A stretch of DNA of 63,039 nt from Desulfobulbaceae bacterium (lineage in GTDB: Bacteria; Desulfobacterota; Desulfobulbia; Desulfobulbales; SURF-16): contig JAHLLM010000035.1 of NCBI GenBank assembly GCA_020444175.1, positions 1 through 63,039 of the forward strand. The letters are read 5' to 3'. Below are positions 1,437 through 54,210 of this stretch, piece after piece. The notes under the pieces were generated by a model. That model searched no databases. It worked only from the letters and a program-made list of their open reading frames with translations, and was not told the origin of the DNA. The position numbers and the translations under genes are program-made. Every line of letters begins with the position of its first letter. Positions within the stretch are counted from its first letter, which is position 1.

Positions 1437-1456
1437 TGTTGCAAAACCGTGCAACA
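1437..1456. promoter_or_regulatory. Upstream activator palindrome, module A
   Basis: TGTTGCA (1437-1443) and TGCAACA (1450-1456) form a palindrome with a 6-base centre, about 120 bases upstream of a sigma-54 promoter. Further GCACAACA and GCAACACC half-site-like words follow to 1488. The position and symmetry fit a binding site for a sigma-54 enhancer-binding protein. No such regulator gene is in the window. Confidence 0.55.
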
Positions 1457-1574
1457 CCATATGTAGCACAACACACTCCGCAACACCTCCACCAACTCCA
1501 CTAGCGCTGCTATGCATTTATTTTATTCTTAAATTTCAACATATTATAAGAATTTTAAAGTGTAGCGCCCTGCG

Positions 1575-1592
1575 TTGGCACGACAGCTGCTT
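1575..1592 (+). promoter_or_regulatory. Sigma-54 promoter, module A
   Basis: TTGGCACGACAGCTGCTT matches the -24/-12 consensus: GG at 1577-1578, ten bases, then GC at 1589-1590. It lies about 50 bases ahead of the first small membrane protein gene and is repeated with the same geometry before module B. Confidence 0.85.
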
Positions 1593-1643
1593 TTATAGAA
1601 AATCAAACAAACAAAACAACACTTCAACATAAGGAGAGAGACC

Positions 1644-1853
1644 ATGACTACCACAACAAATAACCAAACAACAGCACGGACCCAGGAACAAGAATCTATT
1701 TCTCAGAGCGGTGCTCAGGTAGGAATCGGCATTATCACCATCTTAAGTGCCATGATCGGCACATGGGGAGTTGCCTGCCTCATAGGCGGTCTTTCACAGT
1801 ACGGCGTTACCGGTATGGTTAAAGGCTGGATAAGTGCAGTAATGGGCCTTTAA
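1644..1853 (+). CDS. Small membrane protein, module A first gene (unknown family)
   Basis: A 69-residue protein. The polar, Thr/Gln-rich N-terminus (about 25 residues, with a SISQSGAQ segment) is followed by one hydrophobic helix (VGIGIITILSAMIGTWGVAC) and a short amphipathic tail ending in WISAVMG. There are no cysteine or histidine ligands apart from one Cys in the membrane segment. GGAGAGAG lies just upstream of the ATG. It is followed after 72 bases by the 104-residue gene and is closely matched by the protein at 2584-2787. It is driven by a sigma-54 promoter, so it is made under a specific signal. I do not recognise it. A small subunit or regulator of a membrane complex is possible, but nothing in the sequence proves a role. 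Confidence 0.75.
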   Translation: MTTTTNNQTTARTQEQESISQSGAQVGIGIITILSAMIGTWGVACLIGGLSQYGVTGMVKGWISAVMGL

Positions 1854-1925
1854 TAAAATAAGAAATGAAAATAACAGCACAATTTTAAAGATAAGAAAGA
1901 TAAACGAATCAACAAGGAGAAAATC

Positions 1926-2240
1926 ATGACAACTTTACCTACCTCAAAAGGAACAGGCGTATTTTTCGGCATTATGGCAGCAATCGGCGGCATCATGGGA
2001 ATCTGGGCATTTGCTACATTGATGACGGGTCTGTCTTCCGTTAACTGGCAGGTTTCAGAGATGGCCAGGCAATTTCTGGTAGCCACTGGAAATCTTGGGG
2101 AATATGAAACTCTTGTTGATTACTATACCCACATCAAAGGTGTTGAATACCTGATCGCGGTTGCCTTCTTTGCTGTATTCCCGGCTTTCTATAAATCGCT
2201 GAATCCTAAAGTGGAGGAGGCGACAGCATCTACAAAATAA
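1926..2240 (+). CDS. Small membrane protein, module A second gene (unknown family)
   Basis: A 104-residue protein with an N-terminal hydrophobic helix (residues about 11-35, GVFFGIMAAIGGIMGIWAFA). A central soluble stretch (about 36-72) is rich in aromatic and acidic residues (NWQVSEMARQF, EYETLVDYYTHIKG). A second hydrophobic helix follows (about 73-90, YLIAVAFFAVFPAFY), then a polar tail. The sequence is almost repeated by the protein at 2850-3161, including the central segment, so that part is under constraint. AAGGAGAAA precedes the ATG. It shares a transcript with the 69-residue gene, and the pair ends at a strong terminator. Family not recognised; the two probably act together in the inner membrane. 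Confidence 0.75.
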   Translation: MTTLPTSKGTGVFFGIMAAIGGIMGIWAFATLMTGLSSVNWQVSEMARQFLVATGNLGEYETLVDYYTHIKGVEYLIAVAFFAVFPAFYKSLNPKVEEATASTK

Positions 2241-2275
2241 ACTTATTAAAACCACTCTCCTTCAGTGAAAAAAAA

Positions 2276-2309
2276 GGCCTTCAGTCGTCAGACTGGAGGC
2301 CTTTTTTTT
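2276..2309 (+). terminator. Rho-independent terminator after module A
   Basis: An 11-base stem (GGCCTTCAGTC with GACTGGAGGCC, one wobble pair) closes a GTCA loop and is followed by eight T residues. It ends the first small-membrane-protein module, separating it from module B. Confidence 0.9.
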
Positions 2310-2391
2310 CTATCGATTGAGTCACGTTTACATGCAACTCACACATCATCTCCTGCCCGGACTAGCCTCTGTCGCAAGTGTGGCAGAGCGC

Positions 2392-2428
2392 TGCAACACA
2401 TAGTGTTGCACCACACTTCATGCAACAC
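2392..2428. promoter_or_regulatory. Upstream activator palindrome, module B
   Basis: TGCAACAC (2392-2399), three bases, then GTGTTGCA (2403-2410) form a perfect palindrome. A further TGCAACAC half-site is at 2421-2428. This is about 110 bases before the second sigma-54 promoter. The same TGCAACA core occurs ahead of module A, so one enhancer-binding protein probably controls both. Confidence 0.65.
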
Positions 2429-2515
2429 TTTCTCCGCATTCCCGGATGTAGCATCTTTATAAATTAAACCTGTAAAATCGAGCACATGCATACATTTTTC
2501 AATGTAGCATTTTCC

Positions 2516-2533
2516 TTGGCACGGCTGCTGCAA
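2516..2533 (+). promoter_or_regulatory. Sigma-54 promoter, module B
   Basis: TTGGCACGGCTGCTGCAA has GG at 2518-2519 and GC at 2530-2531 with ten bases between, the sigma-54 -24/-12 spacing. It is about 50 bases ahead of the gene at 2584, the same distance as in module A. Confidence 0.88.
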
Positions 2534-2583
2534 TTCAAACTAGTCAAGAGAACAAAAAAGAATTTCAAACGAGGAGATATATC

Positions 2584-2787
2584 ATGACAACAACAACTCA
2601 AAAAACAACAGTTGCACATGAGAAAGAATCAATTTCACAGAGCGGCGCCCAGGTAGGAATCGGAATCATCGCTATTCTGAGTGCCATGATCGGCATGTGG
2701 GGGCTTGCCTGTCTCGCAGGCGGTCTTTCTCAATACGGTATTGTCGGTCTTGTTAAGGGATGGATAAGTGCAGTTATGGGCATCTAA
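2584..2787 (+). CDS. Small membrane protein, module B first gene (paralogue of 1644-1853)
   Basis: A 67-residue protein nearly the same as the module A copy: Thr/Gln-rich start, SISQSGAQVGIGII, one membrane helix, and the WISAVMG ending. Differences cluster at the N-terminus and at a few positions of the helix (GMWGLACLAGGL against GTWGVACLIGGL). The ribosome site is GAGGAGATAT. It is followed after 62 bases by the second gene of the module. Retention of both copies under separate sigma-54 promoters argues for dosage or slightly different roles. Family not recognised. Confidence 0.75.
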   Translation: MTTTTQKTTVAHEKESISQSGAQVGIGIIAILSAMIGMWGLACLAGGLSQYGIVGLVKGWISAVMGI

Positions 2788-2849
2788 CAAAAAAAGAACA
2801 GAGTCCTTGTTTAACATAAATATGGTCGAATCAAAAAAAGGAGAAAATC

Positions 2850-3161
2850 ATGACAACTCAACCAACCACAAAGGGAACAGGCGTATTTTTCGGCATCGTG
2901 GCAGCAATTGGCGGCATTATGGGCATCTGGGCATTTGCAACCCTGATGACAGGTCTGGCTTCCGTAAACTGGCAGATTTCCGAGATGGCTCGCCAATTTC
3001 TGGTAGCAACTGGAAACCTCCAGGAATACGAAACCCTTGTTGATTACTATACACATATAAAAGGCGTGGAATACCTGATCGCGGTTGCCTTCTTTGCCGC
3101 CTTTCCGGTATTTTACAAATCACTGAACCCCAAGGAAGAGGCACCAGCAACCAGCAAATAA
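2850..3161 (+). CDS. Small membrane protein, module B second gene (paralogue of 1926-2240)
   Basis: A 103-residue protein with the same plan as its module A copy: two hydrophobic helices flanking a central segment (SVNWQISEMARQF through YYTHIKGVEYL) that is almost unchanged. Substitutions are mild (V to I, G to Q) and the tail is variable, a pattern of purifying selection on the core. AAAGGAGAAA precedes the start. A terminator follows its stop by about 40 bases. Function unknown; a partner of the 67-residue protein by gene pairing. Confidence 0.75.
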   Translation: MTTQPTTKGTGVFFGIVAAIGGIMGIWAFATLMTGLASVNWQISEMARQFLVATGNLQEYETLVDYYTHIKGVEYLIAVAFFAAFPVFYKSLNPKEEAPATSK

Positions 3162-3202
3162 AAGTTCCTCATAACTCCTCCTCGGGAACTTTGCAGGCAG
3201 CA

Positions 3203-3232
3203 GCCTCCGGTCAAAAGACCGGGGGCTTTTTT
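3203..3232 (+). terminator. Rho-independent terminator after module B
   Basis: GCCTCCGGTC pairs with GACCGGGGGC around an AAAA loop and is followed by six T residues, a strong intrinsic terminator. Confidence 0.9.
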
Positions 3233-3248
3233 GTTTATATGGTTATAA

Positions 3249-3529: not shown

Positions 3530-4657
3530 ATGATACACTTGTTCCGCTTTTTCACTCTTCTCGTCCCTCTGCTGGTGCTGACGGCTTCATGCCAGCAGCA
3601 TCAGGATAAGCCTTTGCCACGCCTGCGCATCGGACATGCCCCCCATGACCATCATGCTCCGCTCTATGTGGCAGCCATGAATCCCGATTATTTCAAAGAA
3701 CATGGCGGCATCTATCTTGAGCAAATCAATTTCCGCAAAGAATATCGTCTTATAGCGAATCAAAAATACCTGGCTGACATCTTAATTGAAACCAGTGCCG
3801 GCGGCAAAGAGCTTATCCGTAAACTCAATGAAGATCATTTTGACTTATCTTTTGGTGGCTTCCCTGCGATGCTGAGTTACATTGACCAGGGCAGCCCTAT
3901 AAAAATTCTTTCCCCTGTCATGGCTGACGGTGCCGGCTTGGTTCTCAAAAAAGAACTGCCGCCCGACAACTGGAACGAATTTCTGCTTTACGTCAGGAAC
4001 AGCACAGAGCCTCTCAAAATAGGCTACAAAAATGCGGTTTCCGTCCAAAATCTTATTTTTGAACGTGCCCTTAAAGAATCGGGTATCTCCTACAGTAAAA
4101 ACAGCAAAGATACCAACGCACAAATTATCCTGTTAAATCTTTATGGCCCCAAAAATCTAATTCCAGCCCTGGAAAACAGCTTAATAGACGGCTTTGTTAC
4201 CATGCAGCCTTTTCTTGCTCTGGTGGAAGAAAGGGGATCCGGAAAAACAATCGCAGATCTCAAGAATCTGCCGCCAGAGGGGAAATGGCCAGGAACGCCA
4301 TGCTGCGCGCTGGCAGCAAACAACAAGTACGTCAATAATCACACTGAAATAGTGCTGAACCTGGTCACGCTCTTACAACATGCCAACCAATATATTAGAG
4401 ATAATCCACAGCAAAGTGCCGTCGATATTTCACAATGGCTCGGCATCACACCGGAAGTAGAAAAAAAATCCATAGCCACCATCAAATATACCAACAATCT
4501 GGATAGTGAATGGCAGCAGGGTGTTACCTTCTGGGTAGAGAACATGATTGAAAGTGGCAGACTAAACAACGAGGTAAAAAAAGCCTATGAAAGTGGCAGT
4601 CTTGAAGAACTGATTTATAACACGAAACTTTATGAACTTGCCCTGAAAAGACTCTAA
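3530..4657 (+). CDS. NMT1/SsuA-type periplasmic substrate-binding lipoprotein
   Basis: A 375-residue protein with a lipoprotein signal: hydrophobic residues 7-19, then LTASC with the lipidated Cys21. Gln at the next position points to the outer membrane by the Lol rule, as known in enterobacteria. The mature part starts with the beta strand and HAPLYVAAMNPDYFKEHGG typical of NMT1/TauA/SsuA solute-binding proteins, which bind nitrate, sulfonates or thiamine precursors. There are no ABC permease or ATPase genes beside it. Instead a hybrid kinase starts 2 bases after its stop, so it more likely presents a ligand to that sensor than feeds a transporter. The ligand cannot be read from sequence. 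GGATGAG precedes the ATG. Confidence 0.85.
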   Translation: MIHLFRFFTLLVPLLVLTASCQQHQDKPLPRLRIGHAPHDHHAPLYVAAMNPDYFKEHGGIYLEQINFRKEYRLIANQKYLADILIETSAGGKELIRKLNEDHFDLSFGGFPAMLSYIDQGSPIKILSPVMADGAGLVLKKELPPDNWNEFLLYVRNSTEPLKIGYKNAVSVQNLIFERALKESGISYSKNSKDTNAQIILLNLYGPKNLIPALENSLIDGFVTMQPFLALVEERGSGKTIADLKNLPPEGKWPGTPCCALAANNKYVNNHTEIVLNLVTLLQHANQYIRDNPQQSAVDISQWLGITPEVEKKSIATIKYTNNLDSEWQQGVTFWVENMIESGRLNNEVKKAYESGSLEELIYNTKLYELALKRL

Positions 4658-4659
4658 CC

Positions 4660-7203
4660 ATGCGAGTTTCCCTGCCCCAGAAAGTCTTCTCCGTCTTCTT
4701 TCCTTTGACAGCCATGACGCTTTTACTCGGCGTTACCATCTATTTTGGCATGACTTCTCTGCGTGATTCCAGCGAACAGATCAGCTTGCTTAAAGATTTT
4801 CAGCTTGTCATTAAACAACTTGAGGTAAGCCAGGCTCAAATATCCAACCAGATAGATTCATTCGATCTGCAAAAATTTGAACGAGAAATTAAGACAGCAA
4901 AGAAACTGGCAGGACAGATTGCCGCCTTTGACCGTTTCATACCATCAGATCTCAGAAAAAAACTTCAGCAATTATCCGCCCGTATTGAAAATTTTCACAG
5001 AGCATTTCTTGAATTGCACCAGAAATACCTGGCAGATAAAAATTTCCTGGAAACAAATTTCAACCTGCACGTACAAATAAATGAGCGCCTCCATGTTGCC
5101 GCATCTGTACGCCCAAGCAATGCGCACGATGCGGTTGGCCAATTGCTGCCTTTGCAGACTCGTGTTTATCACGACAGAGATGCCAGTCAAATTCCGCAAA
5201 TGAAAAAAGTCTACAAAGACTTACAAAATATGACATCGGACAAAAAACTACTCAAAATGGTCCGGGAGTTTGTATCCAATGTTGAAGAAAACTTTCTTAA
5301 CTCGCTGGCAATAAAAAACAGGGGAAAATTCCTTTCAGACACGGCTCATCATTTTTTTACCCTTTCCGATGAAACCATTGCAGCACTATCAAAAGAAAAT
5401 CTTAAAAAACAAAGTCGTCTCATTCAGTCAATTATTGCAATCATTCTGATCACCATATTTCTTTCCTTTTTTCTGTGGTTTCTCTCCTATTCTTATTTTA
5501 AACGCTTTTTGGCGACCCAGAAAAAAGCCATAGAGTCAATCAAAAATGAAAACTATGATTACGAAATGCCCCGCGCTCCTGAAGATGAAATCGGCGACCT
5601 GACAATCACCATGAAACATCTGGCCTTGAGCCTGAAAGAAAGCCGCATCCAAATACAACAATCCAAGGAAAAATACCAGGAGCTGGTAGAAAATCTTGCA
5701 GACTGGATTTGGGAAATTGATGCCCAGGGACACTATATTTATTCCAGCCCGGCGAGCGAAAGCATCCTGGGATTTTTACCGGAAGAAATTATCGGCAAAA
5801 CCCCATTCGACTTTGCCGTTTCCGATACGGAACAGGGACAAAAAGACAGAACTCTTTTTGTCAAAATCCTTAAATCGCAAATAAGCTTTCAGGGCCTGGA
5901 AACCACAAGCATTCATAAAGAAGGGCAGCAGGTTATCCTTGAAACAAGCGGCATACCCATTATTTCGCAAACCGGAGATTTTCAAGGATTCAGGGGAATC
6001 TCAAGAAACATTACAAAAAGAAAGGAGGCAGAATCAGAAAAAGCACTTCTGGAAGAACAGCTCCAGCAATCCCAGAAAATGGAATCAATCGGGCGCCTGG
6101 CAGGTGGTGTTGCCCACGATTTCAATAATATACTCAGTGCCATAAACGGCTACTCAGAACTTCTGCTTCTCGATCTTGATGAAAATGACCCGACAAGAGA
6201 ATCAATAGAAAATATCCTTGAATCCGGCCAGAAGGCTGCCAGATTGACCCAGCAACTGCTCGCCTTCAGCCGAAGGCAAATTATAAAACCGGTGATTCTA
6301 GATTTAAATCAGGAAATATCAGTGACCCGCAAGATGATTGCAAGAATCCTGGGAGAGGACATCGAGATTTCTATTTTTGCAGCCAAGGATTTGTGGCCTG
6401 TCAGAACAGATAGATCCCAGATTGAACAGATTATCATGAACCTGGCTGTAAATGCCCGTGATGCCATGCCCCAGGGAGGAATGCTTACCATTGAAACTGC
6501 CAATGTGAAACTTGATAAGGATTATGTATCCAGCTATTTTTCCCTTTCACCTGGGGACTATGTCACTTTGACCGTCACCGATACCGGCAGTGGCATCACA
6601 AAAGACATACAGCAAAATATTTTTGAACCCTTTTTCACCACCAAGGACCAAAACAAAGGAACCGGCCTTGGTTTGGCTACTGTCTATGGCATTATCAGAC
6701 AGAACGGAGGCGATATCCACGTATACAGTGAAATTAACAAAGGAACATCATTTAAAATCTATCTGCCCCGTGCTGAAGAAAGTAATATCGCGGATGCTGT
6801 TTCCACCTCGAAGGCGCCCGACGATCTGCATCATGGGACCGAAACAATCCTCCTTGTCGAGGATGACGCTTCTGTTCGTGACTTAGCCGAGAGTATCCTT
6901 TCCAAACTTGGCTACACAGTCCTCAAGGCAGGAACCGGTTCTGAAGCATTACAGATATGCTTAGACTATCAAGGACGTATAGACCTGTTGCTGACGGACG
7001 TGGTCATGCCCAAAATGAGCGGTTCCGAACTTGCAGATGAGGTGAAAAAGAACTCCCCTGACACCAAGATCCTTTTCATGTCAGGTTACACGGAAAATTC
7101 CATCGTCCATCACGGAGTCCTGAAGAAAGGCATCAATTTCCTGCATAAACCAATCATCCCCAATAATCTCTCACTGGCTGTCCGCACATTACTGGACTCC
7201 TGA
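4660..7203 (+). CDS. Membrane hybrid histidine kinase (HAMP-PAS-HisKA-HATPase-REC)
   Basis: An 847-residue sensor. Membrane helices near residues 11-30 and 255-277 enclose a helical periplasmic domain. HAMP follows (about 278-330), then PAS (about 340-460, [16 protein letters not shown]), the dimerisation/phosphoacceptor domain with H486 in GGVAHDFNN, and an ATPase domain with [16 protein letters not shown] and [11 protein letters not shown]. The C-terminal receiver (about 728-847) has D780 as phosphoacceptor. It is translationally coupled to the preceding substrate-binding lipoprotein, and I infer that the liganded lipoprotein contacts the periplasmic domain. There is no separate response regulator next to it, so the phosphate may go to a distant output or the receiver may only tune kinase activity. 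Confidence 0.92.
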
Positions 7204-9140: not shown

Positions 9141-9347
9141 CTAACATCCATGCTTGATGAGGAAATCCTCCACCATTTCTTCCATGATGCTTAACTGATC
9201 CCGCCCTGTTTCATGGATGATGATCCAGCTGCAACGATGGTAGGCCCGATACAGATCGGGCCGCAGCTTGAGAGTAACGGTTTCAAGCTCCTTTGCTCCC
9301 GAAGAACGCTCTTTATCCTGCCTGTCGGCTGCTTTCCCGTCGCTCAT
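9141..9347 (-). CDS. Small protein coupled to the HD-GYP regulator (unknown)
   Basis: A 68-residue, charged protein. The N-terminal 20 residues are polar. The rest (ETVTLKLRPDLYRAYHRCSW, ending MVEDFLIKHGC) suggests a strand followed by two helices, reminiscent of ribbon-helix-helix proteins, but I cannot assign it. Its ATG overlaps the stop of the HD-GYP response regulator (ATGA), so translation is coupled and the two are made together. It could modulate the regulator or bind DNA. Confidence 0.6.
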   Translation of the reverse strand: MSDGKAADRQDKERSSGAKELETVTLKLRPDLYRAYHRCSWIIIHETGRDQLSIMEEMVEDFLIKHGC

Positions 9348-10492
9348 ACCATCAGTTCCTTGATACGGAGGATATGGCCTTTTCGTTGCTCGAAAGCATC
9401 CACCACGCGGGGATCAAAATGTTCTCCCCTTTCCCGGGTAATGATCTCTTCGGCTTTTGCAACCGAAAAGGCCTCCTTATAGACCCGTTTTGTGGTCATG
9501 GCATCGAACGCATCGGCCAGGGCCACAATGCGGGCTTCCAGGGGAATTTCCTCTCCTTGCAAGCCATCAACATACCCCGTACCATTCCATTTTTCATGGT
9601 GATAACGGGCAATATTTTTGGCCATGGGATCGATCTGGGCATTATCCATCATTCCAAAGCCAATGACAACATGCTCCTTCATAAGCTCGAATTCATCCCG
9701 GGTATACTTTCCAGGCTTCTTTAATATGGCATCAGGAATGCCAACTTTACCCACATCATGAAGAGAGGCATAAAGCCGGATACGTTTAACAAATTCCCTA
9801 TCAGCTCCATAGGCATCAGCAATCAAGGCAGAATATTCGCTTACCCGGCGGATGTGATTTCCTGTATCATCATCATTTGCCAGGTTAGCATCCTCAAGCA
9901 CACTGACCAGGCTCAGTGTCATTTTCTCAATGGTCTCAGTTTTCTCGTCAACCAGATGGGAAAGATGCTCTTCCCTGTCTGCAAGCATACGATTTTTGGA
10001 CCGCAACTCATCCTGCAGCTGTTTGAGGTGGAGTTGCGCTTTTACCCGGGCCAGCAATTCATCCTTATGGAACGGCTTAGTGACATAATCAACGCCGCCA
10101 TGCCGGAAAGCCTCTACTTTGCTCTCGACATCGGTCTTGGCGGTTATGAAAATAATCGGAATCTCCTTGGTTCGGTACCTTTGCTGCAAAATACGGGCAA
10201 CCTGGAAGCCATCCATACCAGGCATCATAATATCAAGCAGTATCAGATCCGGCAGGTCATGTTCAATCATGTCCAGTACCGCCGCTCCGTCTGCCGCCAT
10301 GCGAATCTGGCAGTCAAGACTCTGTGCCAGAAGCTCAGCCAGCAGTCTTCTATTCTGGGCGATATCATCGACTATCAGTACCTTACATGCCAGATTTCTG
10401 TCTTCTTCATTCAGGGGTCCTGAATAGGGCGCTGTTGGTTGCATTTCCCTGCAAGAGCTGAATTGTTTTTCGTTATGATTGCTTGCTTCCAT
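9344..10492 (-). CDS. Response regulator with HD-GYP phosphodiesterase domain (RpfG-like)
   Basis: A 382-residue protein. The receiver domain (about 36-155) has D42/D43, phosphoacceptor D87 in LLDIMMPGMDG and K139. A coiled linker (about 155-195) leads to an HD-GYP domain with H245-D246 in SLHDVGKVG, H273 in MKEH, and HHEKWNGTGY at 298-307. HD-GYP proteins split cyclic di-GMP. The signature reads GYV here instead of GYP, a mild departure that need not abolish activity. It is preceded on the same strand by a hybrid kinase (66-base gap), which probably phosphorylates it, and overlaps the following 68-residue gene by four bases. Degradation of c-di-GMP fits a switch towards motility. Confidence 0.9.
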   Translation of the reverse strand: MEASNHNEKQFSSCREMQPTAPYSGPLNEEDRNLACKVLIVDDIAQNRRLLAELLAQSLDCQIRMAADGAAVLDMIEHDLPDLILLDIMMPGMDGFQVARILQQRYRTKEIPIIFITAKTDVESKVEAFRHGGVDYVTKPFHKDELLARVKAQLHLKQLQDELRSKNRMLADREEHLSHLVDEKTETIEKMTLSLVSVLEDANLANDDDTGNHIRRVSEYSALIADAYGADREFVKRIRLYASLHDVGKVGIPDAILKKPGKYTRDEFELMKEHVVIGFGMMDNAQIDPMAKNIARYHHEKWNGTGYVDGLQGEEIPLEARIVALADAFDAMTTKRVYKEAFSVAKAEEIITRERGEHFDPRVVDAFEQRKGHILRIKELMV

Positions 10493-10558
10493 TCCTTCTC
10501 TCTAATTTCCAGACTATGATCAAGTCTCAACCCTGCGGTTTTAAATACCAGCTTACTG

Positions 10559-13500
10559 CTACTGCACAATCGTCTCCAGTTTTTTTATCAGGCCCGGCAG
10601 GGCCTCATCATCAAAGGTGGCGGCTATATGTTGCAGCTCCTCTTTGAGACGTTGCATCTGCTCGACTGAATCATATTCACTTAACGATGAGGCAAGCTTG
10701 CGAATCTGGTCAGGATTGAATATTTTCTGATTTTTCTTTAAGACATCAACAGTCATGACAAGAAGAATCCGCAACTCCCGGCTTATTTCGAACGGGGCAA
10801 ATTCCTCGGCAGCCACATCCTCTATTTCCACCGAGGGAGGACTGCCATTTTCCCGGGACAGAAAAAATTTATCCACACAAAAAGCATACATTTTCCCATA
10901 AAGAATTTCCAGGTCTACAGGCTTGGCCACATATTCATTACACCCTGCCTGCAGAAATTTCTCCTCATCACCCGGCAAGGCTTCGCCGGTCATGGCGATA
11001 ACATACAGATCTTTCCATTTATCCTCAGCCCGAATTTTTTTTATCGTTTCCATCCCATCAAGCACTGGCATCTGCATGTCGAGCAACAGCAGATGGAATT
11101 CAGATTCCGCCATTTTATCGAGCGCTTCCCGGCCGTTGTCTGCAACAACAACAGACAAGCCAACTATTTTCAGCATTTCACGTATGAGGCGCTGATTCAT
11201 TTCATTATCTTCGGCAAGCAAAATTTTTAATGGTGTGTCTATCTGTGCCAAAGTATTCCGGAACGCATCTATTTTAATCCGGACATCTTCCTGGCCGGCA
11301 GCTTGCGTCTCTTGTTCTTCCACTGCTGCAAAAGGAATGGAAACGGTAAAAACAGTACCTGTACCAAGATCACTTTTCAGATTAATGGTCCCTCCCATTA
11401 AAGTAATAAGGCGTCTTGTAATGGACAGTCCCAATCCCGTTCCGCCATACATGCGGCTTATTGACGCATCCGCCTGTTGAAATTCGGCAAAGATGATCTT
11501 TTGCATCTCTTTTCTGATCCCGATACCCGTATCTGAAACCTGAAATACGACCTCCTTGTTTTCATAGGAACAATGCAGCGACACGGAGCCTTGTTCTGTA
11601 AACTTGAAGGCGTTATTCAAGAGATTGGCAAGAACCTGGGTGAGCCGTTTTGCATCGCCCAGAACCCTTGCCGGAACATTTGGTTCGCAGACGATCTGAA
11701 AGTCTAATTTTTTCTCCCTGGCCTGAGAGGAAAACATCTGACGGAGTTGCTCGGCAACCTGACTTATGGAAAATTCTTCCCTGACAAAATCAAGTTTACC
11801 TGCTTCTATCTTTGAAAAATCAAGAATATCGCTTATGAGAGTTAAAAGCTTTTTACCGGCCTCACGGATGATTGAAAGCCTCTTTTTATGCGTGTGCTCC
11901 TGCGCGTCCATCAGCATAAGGTCCGTATAACCCAGAATGGCATTCAAAGGCGTTCGGATTTCGTGACTCATGTTGGCAAGAAAAATACTCTTTAAACGCG
12001 TTCCCTCTTCGGCCTGCGTTCTTGCCTCTTTCAAGGCATTCTCAATTCCCTTCAGGTGGGTGATTTCAACGCCATAAACCCGTACCAGACTGTACTCTGG
12101 AACAAAAGCGATTCGACGCAGGAAAACGCCACCATCCACCTCAAGTTCATCGTCAAGATGGCCCTCTTTTTTTCTTTCAAAATCAGCCAGTCTTGCGTGC
12201 AGGTCTCTTAAAAATGGATGGGCAATATCAGGCTTCGCGTCGGGAAAATGCTTTCGGAAGGCAGGGTTTACATAAACGACTTCACCCTGGAGATTTGATT
12301 CTATGACAATATTCGGATTTTCCTCAGGAAAAGAGATCATCCGTCGCAACTCCATCTCAAACTGCTCATGCTCATTTATATCATCTTTTACGACGACATA
12401 ATGACTTACAAAACCGGATTCATCTTTTAAGGGAGTAATGGAGCCATATTCCCAGTGCAGCTGCCCATTCTTTTTTTTCTTAAGAAAATCTCCATGCCAT
12501 TCTTTTCCGGTCTCGAAACTCGCCCACATTTCATGATAAAAATCGGAAGCCAGGAGAGCGGCAAAAGCTTTCAGATTCTGCCCGACGGCGTCACCCTGTT
12601 CAGCCCCTGTTACCTCGGCAAATTTTCTGTTCACATATTCAATCTTGCCTTTTTTATCAGTAATGGCAATTGCTGCCCTGCTCTGCTCAACAACCCTTGA
12701 TAGATAGAGAGCCTTTTTATCGCTATCAGCCTTCTTGAAGCGTGTCTTCAGGTAAAAAAAGCATCCGGCGGCGAGCAAAAGCGAAACAAACAAAAAGCCA
12801 AGAAAGAACCTCCTGGTAAAACCAATACCGTAAGGCTCCCAAAAGCCAAGAGGGAGTTCATTAACAATCTTCCAGAAAAATTTACCCGGCTCTTTTTTAT
12901 GACCCGGATAAAAGGTGGAAAAAGAGATGACACCATTTTTCTGCTGAAACTGTCCCACATTTCCTGCGGAAATTTTCTGCCATTTTTCCGGGTAGGCGTG
13001 GGCATAAGATAGCTGTTTTTCTTGCGAAAATTTGAAAGTCTGATTTTTATCCGCACCGGAGACACTGAGCCGGTGCCCGGCTGAGCTAAGCAGAAAAAGA
13101 ACGCCTGGAAACCCATTTGAAACTTCTTGAATGTCTGCAACAAGATGAGGTCCGGAGTAATTGACTATGACAACCCCTTTCTTCTGTCCATTTTCATCAA
13201 AGACTGGAACGCCGGCACGAAATACCGCATCAGAAGTTTCTTTAACAAGGTCCCGGTCATCATTCAGCTCCAAGGGCGAAACAAAGAAATCACCTTGCTG
13301 CCCCTGTAAAATTTTTTCAAAAAAGGCATGATCCACTTCCTGGTGCAATTTGTTCTGCTCAACCACTGTTGATTGATCATTATCTGAATCAATCCTGAGC
13401 ACCTCCATGCCGGTCAAATCAAGAAGAGATATCTGATCATATTTTTTCTTCCTTTGGGAAAATTTGTAATATTTGCGACTAAGCTTTCTCCGTGAATTTT

Positions 13501-13759
13501 CGGAAGACTCATGCAGATAGGAGTGCAGAACATTTACGGTAGAAAGATGGAGAAGGTCGGCATGAATGACTTCAAGATTTGCACGGATGACTTTTTGAAC
13601 AACACGCACGCACTGCTGTGCCATTTGTTGCTGGTGGAGGTGAAAATCACGCAAGTTACCAAGGGTGTGAACAAGCCCGATGGAAAAAAAGACAAGAAGC
13701 AACGGAATAAAGAGCTTGAAGAAATTTTTGACAAATCTGGAATCTGGAATTTTATCCAT
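10559..13759 (-). CDS. Membrane hybrid histidine kinase with Cache-like sensor and two PAS domains
   Basis: A 1066-residue sensor. The first membrane helix (about 12-32) and a second (about 327-348, FFLGFLFVSLLLAAGCFFYL) enclose a roughly 290-residue periplasmic domain of double-Cache type. Two PAS regions follow (about 360-475 and 480-580). HisKA has H599 in NMSHEIRTPLNAILGY. The ATPase domain has NLLNNAFKFTE, DTGIGI and GTGLGLSITRRL. The receiver has phosphoacceptor D894 in LLLLDMQMPVLDG, and a helical C-terminal tail resembles a degenerate phosphotransfer domain. It heads the cluster with the HD-GYP regulator downstream, so the likely output is c-di-GMP turnover. Confidence 0.92.
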   Translation of the reverse strand: MDKIPDSRFVKNFFKLFIPLLLVFFSIGLVHTLGNLRDFHLHQQQMAQQCVRVVQKVIRANLEVIHADLLHLSTVNVLHSYLHESSENSRRKLSRKYYKFSQRKKKYDQISLLDLTGMEVLRIDSDNDQSTVVEQNKLHQEVDHAFFEKILQGQQGDFFVSPLELNDDRDLVKETSDAVFRAGVPVFDENGQKKGVVIVNYSGPHLVADIQEVSNGFPGVLFLLSSAGHRLSVSGADKNQTFKFSQEKQLSYAHAYPEKWQKISAGNVGQFQQKNGVISFSTFYPGHKKEPGKFFWKIVNELPLGFWEPYGIGFTRRFFLGFLFVSLLLAAGCFFYLKTRFKKADSDKKALYLSRVVEQSRAAIAITDKKGKIEYVNRKFAEVTGAEQGDAVGQNLKAFAALLASDFYHEMWASFETGKEWHGDFLKKKKNGQLHWEYGSITPLKDESGFVSHYVVVKDDINEHEQFEMELRRMISFPEENPNIVIESNLQGEVVYVNPAFRKHFPDAKPDIAHPFLRDLHARLADFERKKEGHLDDELEVDGGVFLRRIAFVPEYSLVRVYGVEITHLKGIENALKEARTQAEEGTRLKSIFLANMSHEIRTPLNAILGYTDLMLMDAQEHTHKKRLSIIREAGKKLLTLISDILDFSKIEAGKLDFVREEFSISQVAEQLRQMFSSQAREKKLDFQIVCEPNVPARVLGDAKRLTQVLANLLNNAFKFTEQGSVSLHCSYENKEVVFQVSDTGIGIRKEMQKIIFAEFQQADASISRMYGGTGLGLSITRRLITLMGGTINLKSDLGTGTVFTVSIPFAAVEEQETQAAGQEDVRIKIDAFRNTLAQIDTPLKILLAEDNEMNQRLIREMLKIVGLSVVVADNGREALDKMAESEFHLLLLDMQMPVLDGMETIKKIRAEDKWKDLYVIAMTGEALPGDEEKFLQAGCNEYVAKPVDLEILYGKMYAFCVDKFFLSRENGSPPSVEIEDVAAEEFAPFEISRELRILLVMTVDVLKKNQKIFNPDQIRKLASSLSEYDSVEQMQRLKEELQHIAATFDDEALPGLIKKLETIVQ

Positions 13760-53406: not shown

Positions 53407-53557
53407 TTTCTTTTCCGCTTTTTTTATGACTCATTTCCTATCTATTTAATTCATCAATTCCTTCGAAACCTCACACCGATCTCCAGCATAACGTATAATC
53501 GCAAAATGCCAGTTTTGCTATACTTAAACATTTATTCAAGTTTCAACTGCTTATTTA

Positions 53558-53776
53558 GTATCTGTCCAGAAATAGGTCATTTCGGAGTCTCGTAAACTCG
53601 CTTACCTGTTTGAGATCAAGGATTGCGCAAAAAATTACCGGAGGCATATATACGATATCTCGGAGTCTCGCCGAGGCTCGCTTACCGGAGGATAATTTTT
53701 TAAGCATGACGAAGATATCGGGCAGGTACGCGAGCCCGCGAGACTCCGAAAGGGCCTTTTATTTATGGACAGGCAC
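53558..53776. mobile_element. MITE copy 2 (219 bp), reverse orientation to copy 1
   Basis: It begins GTATCTGTCCAGAAATAGG and ends CCTTTTATTTATGGACAGGCAC, the reverse of copy 1. It is flanked by a perfect TATTTA duplication (53552-53557 and 53777-53782). Internal cggagtctcg palindromes match copy 1, with about 27 extra bases. No gene. Confidence 0.85.
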
Positions 53777-54210
53777 TATTTAAGCCTGCAATTATTGATC
53801 CAAGAAAAAGTCATATTGCGTTGTTTGTGTTTGTTGTAACAATATCAACAATGTGGAAATTAAAAAAAATAAACTGTACCACTATGTGCCACTAACCAGC
53901 GGGAAATATAGCGATTTTGGCATTTGTTGAGCTATTTCACCCAGAATATTTGGGCTCGAATGATGCCGTGGTTCTCCCTCGCAAAAACTCGTCCCTACTG
54001 AAACCATTGATAAAATTGAGTTCGCCTGATACCATTTCAGTTATTATGGAAACGATTATTTTCTCCGTTTTTATCATCAGACTTGCGCATAATATGAACA
54101 AGAAGTTCCTCATAGGAAATCTTGCTCTTCGGCTGCAATTAATGGTGATTAGGCTGTCGGTCAACCCACCGAAAATCCACAAAATAAACCGTCTTTTCGG
54201 GGTAATCCTT

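Follow-up and report, generated by a model that had tools for sequence, protein, structure and literature searches.

Paired genes of small membrane proteins behind sigma-54-type promoters are associated with those of an Hmc/Nhc-like redox complex and FtsH in Desulfobulbales

Two copies of a gene pair encoding tiny membrane proteins, named A (the smaller gene) and B (the larger gene), were analyzed in a 63-kb stretch of DNA (the window; positions 1 to 63,039 of contig JAHLLM010000035.1, hereafter C14) of a Desulfobulbaceae bacterium with a genome of 5.4 Mb (G000). As read from the sequence, A-B is a conserved two-gene unit behind sigma-54-type promoters, with a GG-N10-GC element close upstream of its first gene, and it is closely associated with one Hmc/Nhc-like complex, even when the genes of the two are unlinked. 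The same genome carries a third A-B pair on contig C18 (14481-15070), with promoter and palindrome of the same type, and an Hmc-like cluster on contig C34 (locus L100). The explanation that we favor, with roughly even confidence, is that an Hmc/Nhc-type cytochrome-quinone complex has A and B as its small, regulated membrane partners and may be linked by A to a dedicated FtsH.

In the window, A1 (1644-1853, + strand) encodes a 69-residue single-helix membrane protein of the A family and B1 (1926-2240, +) a 104-residue two-helix membrane protein, the N-terminal half of which is homologous to A and the C-terminal half HmcD-like. They are followed by A2 (2584-2787, +), encoding a 67-residue A-family protein, and B2 (2850-3161, +), encoding a 103-residue B protein. 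One hydrophobic segment was detected in A1 (residues 30-48) and two in B1 (12-30 and 70-88), and the open reading frames (ORFs) lie where the original prediction, made from the letters alone, had placed its two copies of tiny membrane proteins. The copies are direct repeats with 85% identity over 300 nt and 78% over 212 nt. The ratio of nonsynonymous to synonymous divergence (dN/dS) was 0.067 for B1-B2 and 0.160 for A1-A2, with a dS of 0.90 for both; the differences are mainly synonymous, indicating that the A-B pairs diverged under purifying selection.

Each copy is preceded by a consensus sigma-54 promoter (GG-N10-GC), TGGCACGACAGCTGCT at 1576-1591 (+) for copy 1 and TGGCACGGCTGCTGCA at 2517-2532 (+) for copy 2. 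Farther upstream lie an enhancer-like region with TGTTGC/GCAACA half-sites (1437-1490, +; palindrome at 1450-1468) for copy 1 and a perfect enhancer-like palindrome of 19 bp (2392-2410, +) for copy 2. The pattern TGGCACG-N5-TGCW occurs exactly twice in the window, both times before the A-B pairs (0.08 in dinucleotide shuffles), and the same holds for the TGCAACAC-N3-GTGTTGCA palindrome with at most two mismatches (0.03 in dinucleotide shuffles), which is centered about 117 bases upstream of the -24 element. Copy 1 is followed by an intrinsic-terminator-like inverted repeat (2267-2310, +) with 20-nt arms that are 95% complementary, and with a 4-base loop and a T run by reading; copy 2 is followed by an intrinsic-terminator-like hairpin and T run (3202-3233, +), of which 3202-3227 was scored in the terminator scan. 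This simple scan gave four matches in the window, near the shuffle mean of 2.3 (SD 1.8), and the repeat at 2267-2310 was not among them. The promoter of each copy, the palindromes 110-120 bases upstream and the terminators were thus found as originally described. In the whole genome, TGGCAYG-N5-TGCW gave 21 matches (reversed control, 2), three of which precede A-B pairs. The palindrome was found at six places with at most two mismatches, three of them at A-B promoters, and at 36 places with at most three mismatches, compared with 14 for the reversed control.

The pattern also recurs in other genomes. In the related loci together with the three own-genome pairs, a sigma-54 pattern, chosen after the upstream sequences had been inspected, was present within 150 bp upstream of 42 of the 43 leading A genes, compared with 0.64 expected from the rest of the same loci; one L009 gene with too little upstream DNA and five A genes standing second in a row were left out of this count. 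The 43rd leading A gene (L005) carries CGGCACACCACATGCT instead, and the pattern was absent before four of the five second A genes of A-A-B units and present before one (L014). TGTTGC/GCAACA hexamers were enriched upstream (71 versus 14.1 expected), occurring in 34 of 41 regions, and the arrangement TGTTGC-N3..8-GCAACA was found in 10 of the 41. Own-genome leading A genes on C43, C53, C59 and C80 have GG-N10-GC with a looser -12 element within about 115 bases, and the A gene on C8 has no GG-N10-GC site within 300 bases. At L118 (G000:C8, 6237-9688), sigma-54-like sites stand upstream of two features, a membrane ORF followed by an A gene and a pair judged from its sequence to be multiheme cytochrome/cytochrome b-like; another sigma-54 activator homologue lies nearby.

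When GTDB genomes were scanned with B1, 45 loci were obtained. Six of them (L039 and L041-L045) match the C-terminal part of B only (57 or 61 to 95; L043 gapped, from 19), and A adjoins B in 36 of the remaining 39, the exceptions being L002 and L023, where B lies at a contig edge, and L038, where B is broken. One additional B without A was found in L007. The recurrence of pairing and promoters, proposed as a check in the original prediction, was therefore borne out. Tandem A-B pairs were observed in seven of these loci (L001, L007, L017, L025, L027, L032 and L033). When 44 B proteins were placed in a tree, tandem copies grouped by genome, with starred support, in the case of L017 and L025; in the case of the window, L001 and L033 they stand together in unresolved forks, and in that of L007 they do not group, indicating that duplication or homogenization has recurred. 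In G041, a genome of two contigs, six B genes of full length are spread over four separate stretches (L125-L128), the two in L126 being identical; each pair has its own sigma-54 pattern and none lies inside the Hmc-like cluster as read in L122-L123.

Neither protein had been assigned to a family, and a match of the pair to a known small-subunit family had been named as grounds against the prediction. For A the first statement stands, since A matches nothing curated, but 40 of the 44 B proteins match NCBIfam HmcD (NF045712) at E ≤ 0.1 (best 2.8e-5), so that the novelty of B is partly refuted. B1 scored 14.4 bits and B2 17.1 bits, both below the curated cut-off of 34 bits. Residues 61-88 of B1 align to positions 2-29 of the 38 in the HmcD model, and the HmcD core (THIKGVEYL and the helix) is present. 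V64, Y67, I70, G72 and Y75 are invariant in the 44 proteins. The alignment left out partial copies (those of L002 and L018 and the second one of L027), one of the two identical L032 copies, fragments in L020 and L038, the HmcD-only loci L039 and L041-L045, and L046/L047, which are the window itself. When the C-terminal half of B was compared, profile to profile, with five HmcD-like proteins of other phyla, the hhalign probability was 98.0% (E 2.8e-13, 37 columns). The N-terminal half of B is homologous to A (96.4%, E 1.4e-9). The HmcD-like genes of L039 and L041-L043 precede a gene that belongs to the same cytochrome cluster, and HmcB/HmcC-like genes. The HmcD-like proteins from other phyla (L039, L041-L043 and L045) also have a conserved C-terminal extension of roughly 65-110 residues.

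The redox cluster itself is seen with A-B in other families, for example in L032 (Desulfurivibrio-titled), with the order PAS histidine kinase, sigma-54 response regulator, A, B, FtsH, short cytochrome, HmcB-like, HmcC-like and second kinase. The linked series regulator-A-B-FtsH-cytochrome-HmcB-HmcC was found in L139, L019, L021, L028, L029, L031, L032 and L035; in L020, L025, L036, L037 (Desulfobulbus-/Desulfofustis-titled), L140 and L141, A-B stands after HmcC or the second kinase instead. Of these, L025 comes from the cultured Desulfobulbus rhabdoformis DSM 8777 and L020 from the cultured Desulfofustis glycolicus DSM 9705. Outside the order, in G266, A-B is encoded on the opposite strand at the end of a class I cluster. 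HmcB/HmcC scores lay below the equivalog cut-offs (405.7 bits in L021, cut-off 420; 359.3 bits in L028, cut-off 550). The L021 FtsH, which has AAA ATPase and M41 domains, scored 778.9 bits (FtsH_fam equivalog cut-off 600) and 229.4 bits for the M41 peptidase. In the own-genome cluster (L100), the HmcB and regulator of which share 78% and 66% identity with their counterparts in L021 and L028, no A or B lies between regulator and FtsH, A-B being unlinked on C14 and C18. The same separation was observed in the family of the window (own C14/C18 versus C34; G002 C3 versus C12; G016 C36 versus C91), and this family also shows the transition: G057 and G090 keep A in the cluster, and G090 has a B remnant with two stops before FtsH. 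In G090 (L138), where the A gene comes straight after the regulator, a palindrome of the same type with two mismatches stands upstream of A and thereby connects the enhancer with the regulator next to it; a weaker one with four mismatches stands upstream of the cluster A of G057 (L137), and G002 has one with three mismatches between FtsH and the cytochrome gene.

Co-occurrence was analyzed in 116 genomes of the order. B was present in 63, an HmcB orthologue (E ≤ 1e-90) in 67, the regulator (E ≤ 1e-190) in 66 and FtsH (E ≤ 1e-220) in 38. B and HmcB occurred together in 59 genomes, B alone in 4, HmcB alone in 8 and neither in 45 (Fisher 3.7e-19, uncorrected for kinship). The four genomes with B alone (G014, G069, G085 and G101) are draft assemblies in 170-410 contigs; in G014 the B match is marginal (E 7.2e-6, internal stop). 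These counts likewise speak for a plain structural role of A and B as small subunits of the Hmc/Nhc-like complex, with B as its HmcD/NhcD and the FtsH neighborhood incidental, a reading that we regard as possible though doubtful. It gains from HmcD being an existing NCBIfam model and from NhcD being listed as the fourth subunit of the Nhc complex, a cytochrome c3:quinone oxidoreductase (PMC8076601). Sigma-54 control, too, was predicted for the octaheme Ohc complex of Desulfovibrio (PMC4641369), so that a redox complex under sigma-54 is not new. The copy numbers argue against plain subunits: the HmcB orthologue is a single match in all 67 genomes, whereas B gives 1 to 6 matches per genome, 105 (fragments and broken copies included) in the 59 genomes with both and more than one in 30 of them. 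Also against it, A stands with FtsH where no HmcD-type complex was found in the stretch read (L147 and L117), and beside NrfH/NrfD-type genes without B.

A is a larger family than the pairing with B alone, and one without a curated family. A1 and A2 gave no match to Pfam up to E 1 and none to NCBIfam; among 49 A members, Pfam matches were scattered and weak, with at most four sharing one (best E 0.0028). The 34-residue fragment of L032 and the 8-residue fragment of L020 were left out of the A alignment. A-family matches were found in 78 of the 116 genomes of the order. A scan of 198 genomes of the phylum, including at least 8 from the order, gave matches in 6, of which three lie outside the order. 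The own genome has 15 such matches, one of which is the C18 B gene, leaving 14 A genes.

Adjacency of A to FtsH is recurrent, also where B is absent (L122, L124, two clusters in L130, L133, L135, L136, the divergent L117, and L147). Ten A-only clusters lie behind a regulator of the same subfamily (L122, L124, two in L130, and L131-L136); they were picked for a regulator match near A, and in L135 and L136 an FtsH match had already been seen. FtsH is the next gene after A in eight of the ten and stands further off in L131 and L132; among the eight, L134 lies at the end of a contig, and its FtsH was recognized by tblastn only. Several go on with an NrfH-like or c7-type cytochrome, an NrfC/DsrO-like iron-sulfur protein and an NrfD protein. 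These class II clusters (L122, L124 and L130-L136) comprise a kinase, the sigma-54 regulator and two to four A-family genes, mostly with FtsH next, and represent a second version of the system, one that lacks B. Outside the order, A stands before an NrfH-like cytochrome gene in G237.

This adjacency could also be explained if the cluster FtsH had A and B as its adaptors, modulators or substrates in a membrane-quality-control response independent of the redox complex, similar to MgtR, which we consider rather improbable. In L147 (G213, outside the order, from another family of the phylum) the order is A-A-FtsH with no redox gene recognized in the 18 kb read, and in own-genome C53 (L117) A-A is divergent from an FtsH paralogue; both agree with such a role, as do the eight of ten A-only clusters with FtsH directly after A. 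A precedent is given in PMC6813294, according to which the MgtR peptide promotes degradation of MgtC by FtsH, and the N-terminal tail of A before the helix has a median length of 29 residues. Against independence from the redox complex stand the HmcB orthologue in 59 of the 63 genomes with B and the HmcD-like part of B.

The role that had been suggested originally, a dosage-dependent response to envelope stress, metal or nitrogen, was not supported, since the linked genes are those of the redox complex, FtsH and the two-component system; we now rate it as very improbable. A stress system could likewise have sigma-54 promoters, duplicated genes and a membrane location, and one unlinked locus (L001) has a peroxiredoxin-family gene upstream. 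However, no stress, metal or nitrogen gene was seen to recur in class I or class II clusters, and unlinked pairs lie among unrelated genes such as those for PNPase, TruB and enolase. The neighbors of unlinked pairs (also peptidase M16, the peroxiredoxin family and a CLC channel) look unrelated and were not used for assigning a function.

It is hardly credible that a mobile island carries A and B as small membrane toxins or as proteins of a holin-like kind. Four of the 49 A members match Phage_holin_3_6 weakly (best E 0.0028), and a VapC homologue is encoded in the window at 930-1322; the other 45 A members have no holin match at E ≤ 0.1, the copies have been under strong purifying selection, and the context of two-component, FtsH and redox genes is conserved.

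Under the favored explanation, in which A and B are regulated partners of the cytochrome-quinone complex, the complex would be a periplasm-facing cytochrome c/iron-sulfur/NrfD-type quinone complex encoded on C34 of the own genome. From motifs, homology and gene linkage, we infer four steps. When some redox or respiratory condition prevails, the histidine kinases of C34 may phosphorylate the sigma-54 response regulator encoded on the same contig. The regulator would then bind the TGCAACAC-N3-GTGTTGCA palindromes, which are associated with the A-B promoters, including those of the window, and would fire the sigma-54 promoters of the three unlinked pairs. B would dock on the complex by its second helix, which is homologous to HmcD. 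Finally, the A module, present as A and again as the first helix of B, would work with the FtsH to which it is linked in the cluster, so as to stabilize, assemble or remodel the complex. Several A-B copies could provide a large or tunable pool for a single copy of the core complex.

A number of observations weigh against this explanation. The HmcD scores of B1, B2 and the HmcD-like proteins of L042, L043 and L045 range from 14.4 to 22 bits, all below 34, and the HmcD-like protein of L039 gave no match to NCBIfam HmcD, so that the proteins used in the hhalign comparison are HmcD by similarity and context only. The AlphaFold model of B (helices 8-38, 43-53, 63-68 and 73-91) is moderate, with a predicted local distance difference test (pLDDT) of 76 and a predicted template modeling score (pTM) of 0.40; that of A is poor (pLDDT 63), below the quality for a structure search. 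Neither alignment profile matched the Protein Data Bank (PDB) up to E 1, and Foldseek of the B model against PDB gave a single meaningless match (E 9.8). The full palindrome (at most three mismatches) is present in just 11 of the 41 upstream regions, and the A-less clusters of G000 and G002 lack it in the stretch from the regulator to FtsH. FtsH was found in just 38 of the 116 genomes, at a strict threshold. Eight of the 67 genomes with an HmcB orthologue have no B match, indicating that B is not strictly required, and B, up to six-fold more numerous than HmcB, is odd for a plain stoichiometric subunit. Since the A-only clusters were picked by a nearby regulator match, their regulator linkage is not independent evidence.

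A further-reaching version, which we think unlikely, is that B is a natural fusion of an A module, traveling with FtsH, and an HmcD module, traveling with the cytochrome-iron-sulfur-NrfD complex, and that A and B are sigma-54-inducible multicopy adaptors placing Desulfobulbales respiratory complexes under a dedicated FtsH. If true, it would mean a switchable proteolytic remodeling of anaerobic electron transport, with the class II clusters as parallel versions.

Other features of the window were also recorded. A VapBC-like toxin-antitoxin pair lies just upstream of copy 1 (694-1322); the VapC homologue scored 134.8 bits (cut-off 140), and the antitoxin has weak matches only. At 3530-7203, an NMT1/SsuA-like substrate-binding protein gene is directly followed by one for a hybrid PAS histidine kinase, the two being likely a sensor pair for a small molecule. 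A receiver protein and a large histidine kinase are encoded at 9344-13759. L002 has, downstream of its B gene, a receiver with 77.6% identity to this one, indicating that the neighborhood is partly conserved in a relative. A dispersed repeat of about 200 bp, located near the A loci, occurs at 240-460 and 53555-53778, with matches in L101 and L117-L121. It was considered as a vehicle of A dispersal and rejected; as it matches six of the seven other own-genome stretches (not L100) and recurs at 53.6-53.8 kb of the window, it is a general repeat of this genome.

The analysis locates two small membrane families, A without a curated family and B with weak matches, next to respiratory complexes of the NrfD type. 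Their sigma-54 promoters are linked to a two-component regulator, and an FtsH lies in the same cluster. This bears on the rewiring of periplasmic electron flow in sulfate reducers, sulfur disproportionators and cable bacteria. One complex against up to six regulated small-protein gene pairs would be an unusual stoichiometry for a respiratory enzyme, and the predicted regulator, enhancer sequence and partner genes make the system directly testable. In the open-licence PubMed Central (PMC) literature on HmcD, Nhc, Hmc/NrfD/Desulfobulbaceae, and FtsH with sigma-54, NrfD or cable bacteria, no description of A-B was found, nor one of multicopy, unlinked, sigma-54-driven small subunits with an FtsH partner. 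Hmc, Nhc, NrfD and sigma-54 are absent from the main text of PMC8170396, on sulfur metabolism of Desulfobulbales.

Among known systems, HmcABCDEF and NhcABCD of sulfate reducers share with the present cluster a cytochrome c, an HmcB-like iron-sulfur protein, an HmcC-like NrfD-type protein and a small HmcD-like membrane protein. In place of HmcA/NhcA, the cluster has a short cytochrome with five CxxCH motifs, counted by eye in L100, whereas Nhc has nine hemes. In L100, to which the search was confined, the gene next after HmcC is the kinase, with no adjacent HmcE or HmcF. The cluster further differs from Hmc and Nhc in the extra N-terminal helix on B, the extra protein A, the presence of FtsH, and A-B genes that are often multicopy and unlinked. 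OhcABC, which has the sigma-54 activator DVU3142 (PMC4641369), is likewise a multiheme-cytochrome membrane complex of a sulfate reducer under predicted sigma-54 control; there the promoter lies on the core complex genes, whereas here promoters lie on the genes of the small membrane proteins, often at unlinked sites. MgtR (PMC6813294) shares with A-B a small hydrophobic protein tied to FtsH-dependent turnover of membrane proteins; it has 30 residues, and the likeness is a functional analogy with no homology claimed. The nearest published parallel that we have seen is the TMH1-DsrOhPh-tetrahaem locus of cable bacteria (PMC13047784). In the main text, FtsH and sigma-54 are absent as terms, and TMH1 is likened to A by description only; common to both systems are the order Desulfobulbales and the combination of a cytochrome, an iron-sulfur protein, an NrfD-family protein and an unannotated single-helix protein.

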